A DNA stretch of 64,000 nt from Methanosaeta sp. PtaU1.Bin112 (GTDB lineage Archaea > Halobacteriota > Methanosarcinia > Methanotrichales > Methanotrichaceae). This document shows, piece by piece, positions 35,259-40,414 of the stretch. Position numbers and translations under genes: made by a program. The notes below the pieces were generated by a model. That model had not been told where the DNA came from, did not search any database, and saw only the letters and a list, made by a program, of their open reading frames with translations. The stretch lies in contig MVRL01000104.1 in assembly GCA_002067705.1 (NCBI GenBank), forward strand, positions 1-64,000, in the 5' to 3' direction. Numbering within the stretch: position 1 is the first letter of the stretch; every line of letters starts with the position of its first letter.

Positions 35259-36239
35259 ATGAAGCTCCTGGACGTCATCAGCATTCTGCTTGTTTTTGCC
35301 AGTACGGGCTTGGCGGAAGATCTCATCTTTTTCGCTGATGATCACTATAAATCGTTGGGCAGACCGGAGATTGTCGCCTGTGTAGCCACTCCGGTTCTGC
35401 TGCCTGAGGACAGCATACTGCGCGTAAGCCTGGCCAATGCGGGTGAGCTGAGAGAGCTTATCCCCATCAATGAGAGCGGCTCGAATGACGACATATTTCA
35501 GGAGATGATGGCAGAGACAAAGAGCTGTGATGCTCTGAACATCAATGCCGTACTTGGGGGAACGCCGGCCATAAAGGTGGCATCTGCTCAGCAGAATATC
35601 GATGTCCTTCCTGCCGGGTCTGCAACGATGCTGCAGTTTCATATAATCACGCAGAAGAATGCAAGCGGTTGGTATTCTCTGCCCCTTAGCGTGGAATATG
35701 AGAGACAGGTGGATGTAAGTGTGAAAAGCGGGGAGGTATTTCCCCTCTACGAAGCAGAACGTCAGAACATTACCTGCGATGTATTTGTATCTGGATTCAA
35801 TCAGACTTTGCATATTTCTGGGATTAAGTCCCAGCTTTATCCAGGAGGGCAGGGAAGCATAAGAATGATAATAGGCAATGATGGTGCGACGACGCTGTAC
35901 AATTGCTCAGCCGGACTCCTGGCGGCCCCTCCCCTTTATGTAGAAAGCCCGACGGTACTGCTCGGAGACCTTGATCCCGGATCGCTTCATGTAATGGAAT
36001 TTGAGGTGAGGGCAGATGGAAATGCCAGCTTGCATGACTACCAGTTGGCCTGTGAGATTCTCTGTCAAGAGAAAAGCATAATTGTTCCGCTGCAAGTATC
36101 TCTCTCTGAGGTTGGATTCCTGGGCACCTTTTCCCGACCAGAATATGTATTGGGCGGCCTGGCTGTAGCCGGTCTGGCCGCTTTTCTCATATGGTGGCGA
36201 GGAGATCGAAAATTGGGTCGCAAGAGAAGAAGGTGGTAG
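35259..36239 (+). CDS. Secreted C-terminally anchored protein ahead of the ABC-2 operon
   Basis: 326 residues: a signal peptide (about 1-19), a large extracellular part of at least two beta-sandwich (COG1361/NEW3-like) segments with Asn-glycosylation sites, one membrane helix near 291-309, and an Arg/Lys-rich tail. It lies 47 bases before the ABC-2 ATPase gene and may be an extracellular accessory of that exporter. The start is uncertain: GGAGG (35235-35239) is better spaced to an ATG at 35249 in another frame that closes after 28 codons. No specific function is recognised. Confidence 0.6.
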   Translation: MKLLDVISILLVFASTGLAEDLIFFADDHYKSLGRPEIVACVATPVLLPEDSILRVSLANAGELRELIPINESGSNDDIFQEMMAETKSCDALNINAVLGGTPAIKVASAQQNIDVLPAGSATMLQFHIITQKNASGWYSLPLSVEYERQVDVSVKSGEVFPLYEAERQNITCDVFVSGFNQTLHISGIKSQLYPGGQGSIRMIIGNDGATTLYNCSAGLLAAPPLYVESPTVLLGDLDPGSLHVMEFEVRADGNASLHDYQLACEILCQEKSIIVPLQVSLSEVGFLGTFSRPEYVLGGLAVAGLAAFLIWWRGDRKLGRKRRRW

Positions 36240-36285
36240 AGACCGTGGCCGCAATCAATAGCTGCAATTAGAGCATGAGAGAGAC

Positions 36286-37218
36286 ATGACAGAAAAACCG
36301 ATCAAAGCTGCTGGAATATGCAAGACGTATAAGGGCTTTCTAGGGAGCAGCGCCACTGTACTTCACGACATATCCCTGGAGATAGAAGAGGGAGAGATCT
36401 TCGGCCTGCTCGGCCCCAACGGCTCGGGCAAGACCACTCTCATTTCCATATTCTCAACACTGATTTTTCCGGAGCGGGGCAGCTTATCTATCTTAGGGAT
36501 GGATGCGCGTCGTCATAACAAAGAAATACGCAAATTCATAAACATCAGCACTGCCAAGCCCAATTTTCCCTGGAGCCTGACGGTGCGAGAGAACCTGCGC
36601 TACTACGGAATGCTCTATGGCCTTCATGGCTCCGCCCTCTCCCGGACGGTGGAGGATCAAATGGATGCCTTTGAGCTAGGTGAGTTCAGAGACATGAAGT
36701 TTGAGAACCTCTCCACCGGCCTCAAGCAGCGTCTCTCTCTGGCCAAGGCCATGCTCAATCAACCTCGCCTGCTCTTTCTGGACGAGCCCACAACGGGTCT
36801 TGATCCTGATATATCCATTAAGACCCGAATGCTGATAAAGAGGATTCATCAGGAGCAGAACATATCTGTGGTCCTGTCTACTCACTACATGCCTGAGGCG
36901 GAAATGCTCTGCGATAGGATTGCATTTCTGCGCAAGGGCAGGATTGTGGCGATGGATACGCCTCGCAATTTAAAAAGGCATCTCGGACTAGGAGAGAGAA
37001 TCGTGGTCACTTATGAAGGGTCGGTGGACATCGCCGCCCTGCAAGGCCTGCCCGGAGTCCTCGCCATCAAATCAGAAAGAGACCGCCTGGAGATTGTGAT
37101 CGATAGAGTAGAGGATAGTCTTGACAGGATAGTCAAACTCTTTTGTGCAGCCAGAATCCTTAATATAACAGTAAGAGAGCCTGATTTGGAGGATGTATTC
37201 CTTGAACTGGCAAGGTGA
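36286..37218 (+). CDS. ABC-2 type transporter ATP-binding protein
   Basis: 310 residues. Walker A is Gly-Pro-Asn-Gly-Ser-Gly-Lys-Thr-Thr (about residues 45-53), the signature is Leu-Ser-Thr-Gly-Leu-Lys-Gln-Arg, and Walker B is Leu-Phe-Leu-Asp-Glu-Pro-Thr-Thr-Gly-Leu-Asp. The C-terminal extension of about 80 residues is typical of DrrA/NodI-type exporters. It overlaps its permease gene by 26 bases. The substrate is unknown; candidates are lipids, glycans or drugs. Confidence 0.9.
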   Translation: MTEKPIKAAGICKTYKGFLGSSATVLHDISLEIEEGEIFGLLGPNGSGKTTLISIFSTLIFPERGSLSILGMDARRHNKEIRKFINISTAKPNFPWSLTVRENLRYYGMLYGLHGSALSRTVEDQMDAFELGEFRDMKFENLSTGLKQRLSLAKAMLNQPRLLFLDEPTTGLDPDISIKTRMLIKRIHQEQNISVVLSTHYMPEAEMLCDRIAFLRKGRIVAMDTPRNLKRHLGLGERIVVTYEGSVDIAALQGLPGVLAIKSERDRLEIVIDRVEDSLDRIVKLFCAARILNITVREPDLEDVFLELAR

Positions 37219-37987
37219 ATTGAATAAGTACCTGGCTAGTGCCTACAAGAACTGGCTGATCTCAAGGAGGAACGTCTTCACCTTGTTCGAGCTATTCTTC
37301 TGGCCAATGATCAGCTTGCTGTCCATCGGCCTGCTCACTCGTTTTCTCAAGGTAGACAGCTCGATGGTCTCCTTTCTCCTGGTAGGGGCGATTGCACTTA
37401 CCATTTTGCAGGTAGCTCAGATCGATGTAGCCTATGTTCTTTTATTCGATATGTGGTCCAAGAGCATCAAGAATACCTTTATCGCACCGATCAATAGCTA
37501 CCATCTGGTTTTTGGAGCGATGCTCTTCGGCATCCTGCGGGGCAGCGTTGTCTTTTTCATTCTGGCCATGGTCAGTCGCTATCTCTTCGGCTTTAATTTC
37601 CAGGATGGAGGCCTTCTGCCTTTGCTGATATTTCTGGCAGGAGTTTTTTCGACCGCTGCGGTCATCGGCATTACGGTGTGCATCTCCATTCTCACCTTTG
37701 GCCAGAAGGCGGATGTTGCCGCCTGGAGCCTGAGCGGCATGATCCTGCTCATCAGTGGAATTTACTACCCAGTGGAGGTGCTGCCACAACTGCTGCAGAC
37801 GCTGGCCAGAGCCATACCATTGACCTACTTTTTAGAATACTACAGGTCAGTATTTATTCCAGGGCCCCATAATCTGGCAATTGGCGTATTTCTGGCGGTG
37901 TTCTACCTTGTCCTGGGGCTTATCCTCTTAGACGGCGCAATTGAAAGGGCAAGAAGAACAGGAATATTGTTGCGGCTCTCGGAGTAG
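37193..37987 (+). CDS. ABC-2 type transporter permease
   Basis: 264 residues with six hydrophobic segments, as expected for ABC-2 exporters. An amphipathic N-terminal helix is followed by Arg-Arg-Asn-Val-Phe-Thr-Leu-Phe-Glu-Leu-Phe-Phe-Trp-Pro, and near the end come Gly-Ile-Tyr-Tyr-Pro-Val-Glu-Val-Leu-Pro and Ala-Ile-Pro-Leu-Thr-Tyr-Phe, family landmarks of the fifth helix. It pairs with the overlapping ATPase and possibly the surface protein upstream. Confidence 0.88.
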   Translation: MYSLNWQGELNKYLASAYKNWLISRRNVFTLFELFFWPMISLLSIGLLTRFLKVDSSMVSFLLVGAIALTILQVAQIDVAYVLLFDMWSKSIKNTFIAPINSYHLVFGAMLFGILRGSVVFFILAMVSRYLFGFNFQDGGLLPLLIFLAGVFSTAAVIGITVCISILTFGQKADVAAWSLSGMILLISGIYYPVEVLPQLLQTLARAIPLTYFLEYYRSVFIPGPHNLAIGVFLAVFYLVLGLILLDGAIERARRTGILLRLSE

Positions 37988-38033: not shown

Positions 38034-39254
38034 TTGATAGAAGGCATTTTAGGTCGCGTCCCGATAGGAGACAGCCACCCCGTGCGACTGATGGGCGTGA
38101 TCAATCTCAGCCGCGAGTCGTTCTACAAGGGATCAGTGGCCAGCCGCCATGAGGCTCTTGCCCTGGCAGCTGCTATGCAAGAGGAAGGTGCGGATATTAT
38201 CGATCTGGGTGCAGTCTCCACTGCCCCTGGCTCTCCTCCCATCAGCGAAGCAGTGGAACGAGAGAGGCTATTTCCGGCGCTCAAGGATATCTTGGAGAGT
38301 TTGGATATCACCATCTCCATAGATACACAGAGATCCGGGATAGCTGCAGATGCTCTCTCTCTTGGTGCAGACTGCATAAATGATGTCTCAGGTCTGTCTG
38401 ACCCAAACATGGCTGCCAGCGTGGCTGATCACGATGGCTCTCTTATCATCATGGCCTCCCGAAAGAGAGCAGGAGATCTGCTCAATTCAAACGAGATAAT
38501 TGCTCTTCTGGGGGAGAGAGTAAGAGCTGCAGTCTCAAGCGGCGTCGGACTGGATAAGATCTCAGTTGATCCGGGCATCGGAAAATGGATACCGGAAAAG
38601 ACGCCCGCCCACGATCTGGCAATCCTGGCTGGTATGCAGCGGCTGCGTGCTTTGGGCAGGCCGGTGGTCGCAGCTCTGTCCCGCAAATCATTCATCGGAG
38701 ATCGTCTGCATAAACCTGATCCCTACCAGAGGCTGGCGGGAACGCTGGCGGCCACAGCTATCGCCGTTTACCTGGGTGCTCATGTTGTCAGGACGCATGA
38801 TATCGCCGACAGTCGAGATACTATCGTCATGGCCCAGGCGATCAGAGGCGGTCCAGCTCGATCCGCGGATGAGGAGATGGAAGTGGAGGTTCTGGGCTAT
38901 CTTGGTCAGGGCGAGGATATGGCGGAAAACCTTCGCAGAACTGATGTAGATGAGCGAGGATATGCCGCCCTCTGCAAAAAAAGCTCTTTTCGCGTCCTGT
39001 CTGTGCGCGGCCTGAGCAGCATGGAAGCTATAATAATAAAGCAGGAGATGCTGGCTCGGGGCGGAGATGCCGCTATCCCAAAGCTAGCCCTTCGCTGCGA
39101 TCCTCGACCGGAAGAGGTTTTAATATTTGGCACCACCCATCAGATATCAGGACTGATAAAGAACTTGAGCGGCCAGCCTTTCCGGCTCTCTTCCCTGGCA
39201 AAGAGGATAGCAGAGGCTGTGGCAATGATCGATAGCCCAGAGCGTTACAGGTGA
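38034..39254 (+). CDS. Dihydropteroate synthase-like protein (methanopterin pathway)
   Basis: About 406 residues. The TIM-barrel core keeps DHPS landmarks: Met-Gly-Val-Ile-Asn-Leu-Ser-Arg-Glu-Ser-Phe, Ser-Ile-Asp-Thr-Gln-Arg, Ile-Asn-Asp-Val-Ser-Gly, Asp-Pro-Gly-Ile-Gly-Lys, Leu-Ser-Arg-Lys-Ser-Phe-Ile-Gly and Arg-Thr-His-Asp. In methanogens such enzymes probably join the pterin to the aminobenzoate-derived moiety of tetrahydromethanopterin. About 130 extra C-terminal residues follow the barrel. The start is uncertain: TTG 38034 has GAGGTG 6 bases upstream, while GTG 38025 overlaps that site. Coupled by GTGA to the next gene. Confidence 0.82.
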   Translation: MIEGILGRVPIGDSHPVRLMGVINLSRESFYKGSVASRHEALALAAAMQEEGADIIDLGAVSTAPGSPPISEAVERERLFPALKDILESLDITISIDTQRSGIAADALSLGADCINDVSGLSDPNMAASVADHDGSLIIMASRKRAGDLLNSNEIIALLGERVRAAVSSGVGLDKISVDPGIGKWIPEKTPAHDLAILAGMQRLRALGRPVVAALSRKSFIGDRLHKPDPYQRLAGTLAATAIAVYLGAHVVRTHDIADSRDTIVMAQAIRGGPARSADEEMEVEVLGYLGQGEDMAENLRRTDVDERGYAALCKKSSFRVLSVRGLSSMEAIIIKQEMLARGGDAAIPKLALRCDPRPEEVLIFGTTHQISGLIKNLSGQPFRLSSLAKRIAEAVAMIDSPERYR

Positions 39255-40414
39255 GTGTTTTGCAGGTTTTAGGCATAAAGACGGATCTCATTAGACCGGG
39301 CGATGACCTGGTGGCGTCTCTTGAGAAGGCCATGTCTGCGTCGGGCCTGGCTTTGCAGGATGGCGACATTCTGGTCGTATCGGAGAGCACTGTAGCCACC
39401 GCAGAGGGCAGGGTCGTGGCTCTGCAGGATGTCAAGGCCGGTCCTCTTGCCTTCTCAATGGCTGCCAGGTACGGCAAGGATCCGCGGGAGATGGAGCTGA
39501 TCCTGCAGGAGTCGGATGAGATTATGGGCGGGATCCCTGGGGTGGTGCTGACCTTGAGAGAAGGATTTCTCTATCCCAATGCCGGCATCGATAGCTCTAA
39601 CGCTCCGCCCGGCCATGTAGTTCTATTTCCGCAAGACGCACAGAAGTCGGCGCTCGATATAAAGGGGCGCATAGGCAAAGGCCGGAAGATCGCAGTCATT
39701 ATTGGGGATAGCAGGACCCATCCTCTGCGCCTGGGCTGCGTAGGCGTAGCACTGGCCTGTGCGGGCCTGGAGCCAGTGGTGGACGCCCGCGGCCAGAAGG
39801 ACCTCTTTGGTCGGGAGCTCAAGATCACTCGCAAGGCAGTGGCAGACAACCTGGTCTCTGCTGCCCAGGTAATCATGGGAGAAGGCGACGAAGGAATTCC
39901 GGCGGTGATTATCAGGGGCTCTCCGGTGCCAGTCAACGAGAGCAATAGCGCCATACCCACCATTGCCCCTCAGGAGTGCATGTACATCGGAGCCCTGCGC
40001 TCTGCTCCCCGTCCTTACACCGGCGGATACGATGACCTCATCGAGGCGGCCAGGCAGGCGGCAAAGGAAGCCCATGCTCCTTACTCCGGTTTTTCCGTCG
40101 GCGCGGCGCTTCTCACCCGAAACGGTCGGATTTACTCGGCGGCCAACATTGAAAATGCCGCATCTGGAGCCAGTATCTGCGCAGAGAGAGCAGCTCTTGC
40201 CAGAGCCATAGCATCCGGCGAGAGGGAATTCGAGGCGATAGCAATAGCCGGGAATTCCGTCGAGCCGGTATCGCCCTGTGGCATATGCCGGCAGAGCCTG
40301 ATAGAGTTCGGGGATGAGATCATAGTGATCATGGCAAATGAGAAAGGCGATGCCGTGACGGCCACGGTTGCCGAGCTTCTTCCCAAAGCCTTCACCGATA
40401 AGTGCCTGAGATAG
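39251..40414 (+). CDS. CofE-like F420 ligase domain fused to cytidine deaminase
   Basis: 387 residues. Residues 1 to about 250 match the F420-0:gamma-glutamyl ligase family (CofE): Gly-Asp-Ile-Leu-Val-Val-Ser-Glu near 40, Ile-Ile-Gly-Asp-Ser-Arg-Thr-His-Pro-Leu-Arg and Gly-Glu-Gly-Asp-Glu-Gly. Residues from about 258 form a complete cytidine deaminase: Asn-Ile-Glu-Asn-Ala, Cys310-Ala-Glu-Arg with the catalytic Glu312, and Pro-Cys343-Gly-Ile-Cys346, the three zinc ligands. Both domains look intact. The GTG start overlaps the DHPS-like stop, so it is cotranscribed with a pterin gene. Activity of either domain is inferred from motifs. Confidence 0.85.
   Translation: MSVLQVLGIKTDLIRPGDDLVASLEKAMSASGLALQDGDILVVSESTVATAEGRVVALQDVKAGPLAFSMAARYGKDPREMELILQESDEIMGGIPGVVLTLREGFLYPNAGIDSSNAPPGHVVLFPQDAQKSALDIKGRIGKGRKIAVIIGDSRTHPLRLGCVGVALACAGLEPVVDARGQKDLFGRELKITRKAVADNLVSAAQVIMGEGDEGIPAVIIRGSPVPVNESNSAIPTIAPQECMYIGALRSAPRPYTGGYDDLIEAARQAAKEAHAPYSGFSVGAALLTRNGRIYSAANIENAASGASICAERAALARAIASGEREFEAIAIAGNSVEPVSPCGICRQSLIEFGDEIIVIMANEKGDAVTATVAELLPKAFTDKCLR

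Follow-up and report, generated by a model that had tools for sequence, protein, structure and literature searches.

A CofE paralogue fused to cytidine deaminase in Methanotrichaceae: a probable substitute for the missing folate ligase FolC

Introduction

CofE, the gamma-glutamyl ligase of coenzyme F420, uses the gamma-phosphate of guanosine triphosphate (GTP) to activate the acceptor carboxylate at two metal ions, after which L-glutamate is joined (PMC10861534). In the enzyme of Archaeoglobus fulgidus (Af-CofE), F92 packs against the back of the F420 ring and G153-C155 against its front (PMC10861534). A CofE homologue has also been linked to folate, as CT611 of Chlamydia trachomatis complements an Escherichia coli folC mutant (PMC1971073). 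Among methanogens, Methanosarcina barkeri is described as making and using tetrahydrofolate (H4F) (PMC3261824; PMC9012536, citing Buchenau and Thauer 2004), and the latter paper reports a known H4F gene cluster of Methanosarcinaceae (again citing Buchenau and Thauer 2004), mentioning neither FolC nor CofE. Here, we examine a gene within a 64,000-nucleotide stretch of Methanosaeta sp. PtaU1.Bin112 (contig MVRL01000104.1, positions 1 to 64,000; hereafter the window), a Methanothrix-like genome (G000 in our survey) whose named relatives are Methanothrix and Methanosaeta metagenome-assembled genomes. The gene joins a CofE-type domain, which we call CofE2, to a cytidine deaminase (CDA), and it lies directly behind a dihydropteroate synthase gene, folP. 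We consider it probable that CofE2 substitutes for a missing FolC (as a FolC2) and that it has been fused in Methanotrichaceae to an ordinary cytidine deaminase, for which thymidylate supply is the most plausible rationale.

Results

A first-pass annotation of this stretch had proposed that one polypeptide unites a CofE-like ligase with a complete cytidine deaminase, all zinc ligands and the catalytic glutamate included, and that its gene overlaps a dihydropteroate synthase-like gene at GTGA. These points were borne out. Both domains lie in a single frame (profile scores in Table 1), C310, C343, C346 and E312 are all present, and the folP stop falls within the start of the fusion gene, which suggests co-transcription or translational coupling of the two. 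The gene upstream scores above the TIGR01496 equivalog cut-off for dihydropteroate synthase, which marks it as a true folP. In an AlphaFold2 monomer model of the fusion (mean predicted local distance difference test score of 86), structure comparison matched the N-terminal part to Af-CofE (2phn, 7uld) and the C-terminal part to cytidine deaminases from bacteria and mammals (2d30, 2fr6, 1jtk; 46-48% identity).

An intact long fusion frame was found in 43 of 50 Methanotrichaceae genomes, close relatives included, covering 11 of 11 genera. This rules out the frameshift or assembly error that had been envisaged as a possible origin, and the fusion is genuine. The remaining seven genomes comprise one with a frameshift (G011), one with a fragment (G036) and five draft assemblies lacking a fusion frame. 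In G011, which is near-complete in two contigs, the frameshift splits the ligase part (L069:1154-1914) and leaves FolP and deaminase intact; it is either recent damage or an error of sequencing. Direct reading of the deaminase in fused loci covered at least seven genera. FolP, ligase and deaminase follow one another in this order in nearly every locus read, and the order recurs in named genome-collection records; in two genomes of genus g11 a gap of about 0.8 kb separates FolP from the fusion. No version with the deaminase as a separate gene was found among the Methanotrichaceae loci. Both domains are under purifying selection: against five relatives, the ratio of nonsynonymous to synonymous substitution rates (dN/dS) is 0.06-0.10 in the ligase and 0.07-0.10 in the deaminase. 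Zinc ligands, catalytic glutamate and nucleoside-site residues are retained in the 37 fused sequences examined, of which three missed the strict deaminase pattern and by eye proved to be two intact variants and one sequence truncated at a contig end.

A second, stand-alone cofE, whose presence elsewhere in the genome the first-pass annotation had suggested looking for, does exist. This F420_ligase gene (G000:C146, 247 aa) adjoins a cofC that passes the TIGR03552 cut-off, and its product exceeds both CofE equivalog cut-offs (TIGR01916 and PRK13293); the fused domain as the genome's only CofE is thereby ruled out. The two ligases share 39.6% identity. The fused domain scores 210 with TIGR01916 (cut-off 181) and 207 with PRK13293 (cut-off 274), and CofE2 proteins in general miss the latter, at 186-235 bits. 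With TIGR04132, a folate-ligase model, CofE2 proteins reach 113-133 bits and canonical CofE 67 bits. The best explanation would be that the N-terminal domain of the fusion is not the F420-0 ligase of the cell.

To place CofE2 in its family, we surveyed 295 genomes of the phylum, with the CofE2 threshold checked on a tree and tallies made by hand from tables; group names other than Methanotrichaceae (codes f2, f7, f14 etc.) are assignments from gene content and kinship. Here, stand-alone proteins of 250-280 aa came out closest to the fused domain, at identities of 51-59% among the sampled Methanosarcinia outside the family and 41-52% among Methanomicrobia-like families. The genomes that carry them have a separate, more distant canonical CofE too. 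In the maximum-likelihood tree, canonical CofE form a group of 44 rows (support 99/90), including one long-branch haloarchaeal extra copy, and CofE2 form a group of 27 rows (88/53) apart from it, while bacterial ligases of the TIGR04132 type lie outside both, as does a CofE2 branch from Archaeoglobaceae-like genomes (100/94). Tree and distribution together point to CofE2 being an old CofE paralogue that almost all remaining Methanosarcinia and Methanomicrobia encode without a deaminase; the deaminase would have been added only in Methanotrichaceae. An extra, very divergent CofE-family copy was also seen in a haloarchaeon-like genome (L203:162-1022, G057) that has FolC and canonical CofE.

At the active site, the equivalents of the metal-site residues D109 and D150 of Af-CofE, along with many other positions, are invariant in CofE and CofE2. 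Around the F420 ring, T156-H157-P158 of IGDSRTHPLRLG stand in place of the GRC (153-155) that covers the ring in CofE. In 42 canonical CofE, this loop has an invariant G and R, after which comes an invariant F; the corresponding residues of 30 CofE2 are T, mostly H or Q, and mostly L. The F92 position is occupied by F in 30 of the 42 CofE and by G in 26 of the 30 CofE2, and the cysteine of the PQECMY motif (C243), found in 30/30 CofE2, is Asp in 40/42 CofE. Four further residues (S155, P159, L160 and E215, in alignment numbering, one above that of the open reading frame) are common to CofE2 and the bacterial proteins best matching TIGR04132. CofE2 thus keeps the metal-site residues but has replaced those that hold the F420 ring in Af-CofE (F92, G153-C155).

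Across the phylum, FolP (above the TIGR01496 cut-off) is encoded in 215 genomes, FolC in 67, these being haloarchaea-like families and f10, and CofE2 in 144. CofE2 occurs in 143 of 148 genomes with FolP and without FolC as opposed to 0 of 67 with FolC, counts that are not independent events since the genomes are related. The pattern is repeated within family f7, where 5/5 CofE2-bearing genomes have FolP and most others have neither.

Gene neighbourhoods follow the same partnership. FolP adjoins CofE2 in Methanotrichaceae, Methanomicrobia-like families, the Archaeoglobaceae-like f7 and one f8 genome (G210), with 15 cases spanning 0.8-2.4 kb from start to start; for 44 Methanosarcinia that lack the fusion, the two genes share a contig at a distance of 3.2-34 kb (median 5.8 kb). 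GlyA, FolD, MetV and MetF surround FolP and CofE2 in one genome (G171), and another (G094) has a run of 5-formyl-H4F cyclo-ligase, PurN, PurH, FolP and CofE2 with MetF-MetV convergent to it. Directly 5' of CofE2 in Methanosarcinia (L070, L075, L076), and near FolP in L137, we also observed a gene of the family of ThiC, the thiamine pyrimidine synthase; those tested pass the ThiC model PRK13352 and fall far under the cut-off for BzaB, a cobamide lower-ligand enzyme, so that this identity was rejected. Separately, a contig of Candidatus Pacebacteria (L057:3039-8968) encodes a deaminase-family protein, ThyA, a CofE-type folate-ligase homologue, a DHFR-like protein and a dUTPase, and would be a compact folate-thymidylate island in a bacterium of the candidate phyla radiation.

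The deaminase domain exceeds the TIGR01354 equivalog cut-off, and its residues F281, N299, E301 and R313 correspond to the nucleoside-site residues F24, N42, E44 and R56 of the Bacillus subtilis enzyme, features predictive of an intact cytidine deaminase of the homotetrameric class. The domain is missing in other Methanosarcinia and in Methanomicrobia, and elsewhere in the phylum TIGR01354 proteins occur in haloarchaea and one f8 genome only. Methanogen-type ThyA is present in Methanotrichaceae, and a strong signal for Dcd (dCTP deaminase), whose loss was considered as a possible reason for the fusion, was lacking from every Methanosarcinia genome searched, with or without the fusion. The same genome holds a second deaminase fusion outside the window (L130:1337-2497, G000:C128; orthologue L145:1998-3152), in which a signal-like hydrophobic N-terminus and an extracellular solute-binding domain (SBP_bac_3) precede a C-terminal cytidine-deaminase-like domain without zinc ligands. 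Found in several Methanotrichaceae, it is perhaps a secreted pseudo-deaminase acting as a nucleoside sensor.

Features of the locus

Table 1. Coordinates of annotated features around the CofE2-CDA fusion gene (positions in the window)
Feature	Position	Strand	Basis or remark
DrrA-like ABC transporter ATPase, conserved upstream neighbour	36286..37218	+	same order in L210, L211
ABC-2 permease, conserved upstream neighbour	37193..37987	+	same order in L210, L211
folP, predicted dihydropteroate synthase (residues 22-272) with C-terminal extension of ~134 aa	38025..39254	+	TIGR01496 210 bits (cut-off 163), PF00809; upstream of fusion across Methanotrichaceae
FolP C-terminal extension, ~134 aa	38850-39251	+	within folP
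GTGA overlap, folP stop within fusion-gene start	39251..39254	+	sequence
CofE2-CDA fusion gene	39251..40414	+	single 387-aa frame, GTG start at 39251
CofE2 domain, residues 8-223, predicted dihydropteroate/folate gamma-glutamyl ligase (FolC2-like)	39272..39919	+	PF01996 E 1e-75; structure match 2phn/7uld; own clade, profile, genome context
GGIPGVV, residues 93-99	39527..39547	+	G97 at Af-CofE F92 position (stacks behind F420 ring; PMC10861534)
NAGIDSSN, residues 110-117	39578..39601	+	D114 = metal-site Asp109 of Af-CofE, conserved
IGDSRTHPLRLG, residues 151-162	39701..39736	+	D153 = Af-CofE Asp150, conserved
Linker, residues 224-260, with CofE2-specific PQECMY motif	39920..40030	+	alignment
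Cytidine deaminase domain, residues 261-384, homotetrameric class	40031..40402	+	TIGR01354 134 bits (cut-off 114); PDB 2d30, 1jtk, 2fr6 at 46-48% identity
ICAERAAL, zinc ligand C310, catalytic E312, R313	40175..40198	+	
PCGICRQ, zinc ligands C343, C346	40274..40294	+	

No Pfam domain was detected in the C-terminal extension of FolP. The extension is also found in other Methanosarcinia and in f8, f9, f15 and f19 genomes; several Methanomicrobia-like and Archaeoglobaceae-like genomes have a shorter FolP that lacks it. Directly 5' of folP (35259-37987), an open reading frame without Pfam match precedes the ATPase and permease of Table 1; this order is repeated in two other genomes (G016, L210; G003, L211) and thus represents a conserved neighbourhood.

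Discussion

In this study, we make a strong case, on comparative grounds, for CofE2 as a predicted archaeal dihydrofolate/folylglutamate synthase. The assignment draws on its phylogenetic profile, its folate neighbourhoods and its changed F420 pocket, as well as on the canonical cofE elsewhere in the genome, the precedent of CT611 and the production of H4F by M. barkeri. As proposed, with two divalent metals and a nucleoside triphosphate, which in CofE is GTP, CofE2 would activate the carboxylate of 7,8-dihydropteroate, the presumed substrate, supplied by the neighbouring FolP, and would join L-glutamate to it to give dihydrofolate; it would perhaps also add further gamma-glutamates to H4F. 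The zinc-dependent deaminase, judging from its residues, would convert cytidine or deoxycytidine to uridine or deoxyuridine. Folate-tail synthesis and a pyrimidine step would then share one operon and one protein, and since thymidylate synthesis needs both deoxyuridine monophosphate (dUMP) and methylene-H4F, it would draw on both. Thymidylate supply is a plausible reason for the deaminase fusion, and it is the weakest step of the proposal.

Several observations weigh against this interpretation. CofE2 still meets the TIGR01916 cut-off, hence its automatic annotation as CofE; it lies below the TIGR04132 cut-off of 350, as do the bacterial relatives tested (146-217 bits); and in the tree it is not nested within the bacterial folate-ligase clade. 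Five genomes with FolP and without FolC have no CofE2. In the two of them that were read (G159, G213), FolP is divergent to a beta-RFAP synthase family gene, which suggests methanopterin use. Conversely, one genome (G146) has CofE2, near FolD, without FolP. No folate-using enzymes were found within the window, and genome-wide in Methanothrix methanogen-type ThyA was the only one searched for. As to the thymidylate rationale, no thymidine kinase (PF00265) was found in the seven Methanotrichaceae genomes searched; a route from deoxyuridine to dUMP is therefore hypothetical, and supply of dUMP by the deaminase via thymidine kinase is unsupported.

The lack of thymidine kinase in these seven genomes would equally fit a case in which CofE2 is a folate enzyme but the deaminase is functionally unlinked to it, a chance fusion retained since co-expressing nucleoside salvage with folP does no harm, and so would the restriction of the deaminase, among the main CofE2 lineages, to Methanotrichaceae. 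Against this stand the retention of the fusion in all genera, a dN/dS of about 0.1 and the lack of any separate-gene version, while the Pacebacteria cluster of ThyA, deaminase-family protein, folate-ligase homologue, DHFR-like protein and dUTPase is an independent sign that the pathways are linked. We regard an unlinked deaminase as rather unlikely. More doubtful still, and offered tentatively, is the most far-reaching form of our proposal, in which CofE2, masked by its annotation as CofE, would be the dihydrofolate/folylpolyglutamate synthase of most methanogens in the phylum that make folate, and the fused deaminase of Methanotrichaceae would be coupled to it by channelling or mutual regulation, balancing thymidylate.

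CofE2 might instead serve as an additional F420 gamma-glutamyl ligase, such as a tail-lengthening one, with the adjacency to folP a matter of history. Family membership, intact metal-site residues and the TIGR01916 score are in keeping with such a role, and F420 of the Methanosarcina type carries longer tails. CofE2 is, however, also found in Methanomicrobia-like families, which to our knowledge are not noted for long F420 tails. Moreover, it co-occurs with FolP, excludes FolC and sits in folate clusters, and the residues contacting the F420 ring have been replaced (PMC10861534), so that we judge this role improbable.

The first-pass annotation had also considered a deaminase acting on a pterin or deazaflavin precursor, to which a flavin precursor may be added, rather than on cytidine. 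In favour of this, the domain is fused to a cofactor ligase whose gene adjoins that of a pterin enzyme, and we know of no assigned archaeal pyrimidine deaminase of riboflavin and F420 synthesis. Nevertheless, F281, N299, E301 and R313 are those of true cytidine deaminases, at 46-48% identity, and are kept in the fused copies read, and flavins and F420 are made as well by the other Methanosarcinia and by Methanomicrobia, in which the domain is missing; we reject the idea on the active-site residues and hold it to be very improbable. Its companion suggestion, another acceptor for the ligase within methanopterin synthesis, survives in part, in that the acceptor is probably not F420-0. The pterin-binding FolP neighbour is in its favour, and these organisms make sarcinapterin, with an extra glutamate, but it is MptN, an ATP-grasp enzyme, that attaches this residue. 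A methanopterin role (in tetrahydromethanopterin (H4MPT) or tetrahydrosarcinapterin synthesis) is rejected on distribution and is the least credible of all, as 80 of the 295 genomes lack FolP over the cut-off and, bar G146, also CofE2, despite methanopterin-type carriers being general in those groups, as the anaerobic methanotrophic archaea ANME-1 and ANME-2c use H4MPT without H4F genes (PMC9012536), and as the neighbours of CofE2 are H4F enzymes.

A folate ligase of the CofE type would have several consequences. Methanosarcina and relatives make and use H4F beside methanopterin, yet have no recognisable FolC, and CofE2 fits this gap by virtue of its phylogenetic profile, neighbourhood and remodelled pocket. 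CofE-type enzymes would thus have taken over the FolC role in archaea, as reported in Chlamydia. Our reading also flags a systematic annotation error, with TIGR01916 calling CofE2 a second F420-0 ligase. Finally, the deaminase fusion would be a natural physical link between folate (vitamin B9) and pyrimidine metabolism in a widespread family of acetate-using methanogens, Methanothrix and its kin.

Comparison with known systems

Folate ligases of the CofE type are already known in bacteria. In the literature searched, we found no report of one in archaea, where it apparently stands in for FolC in folate-making methanogens in general, and none of a fusion of CofE to cytidine deaminase; an earlier prediction is possible. 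The nearest bacterial counterparts are FolC2/CT611 and the TIGR04132 family ('putative folate metabolism gamma-glutamate ligase'), which likewise belong to the CofE family and are found near folate genes in hosts without FolC (PMC1971073). CofE2 differs from them in being archaeal, under the TIGR04132 cut-off, outside the bacterial clade and, in one family, fused to a deaminase. With CofE of A. fulgidus (PDB 2PHN, 7ULD) it shares the fold and metal-site aspartates at 30-37% identity, but it has a replaced F420-ring pocket, a separate clade, a canonical CofE in the same genome and a folate context. FolC itself, of the Mur-ligase fold and fused to FolP in haloarchaea, has the same reaction as that predicted for CofE2 and the same partnership with FolP, whereas the fold is unrelated and the phylogenetic distribution complementary. 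The fused deaminase is 46% identical to B. subtilis CDA (PDB 1JTK), with all catalytic, zinc and nucleoside-binding residues in common, but it forms the C-terminal domain of a 387-aa protein rather than a free protein of ~130 aa. In overall layout the fusion can also be set beside mycobacterial FbiB, in which a CofE-type domain likewise carries a second enzyme domain at its C-terminus; there, the second domain has no relation to deaminases, and F420 is the cofactor (PMC10861534).

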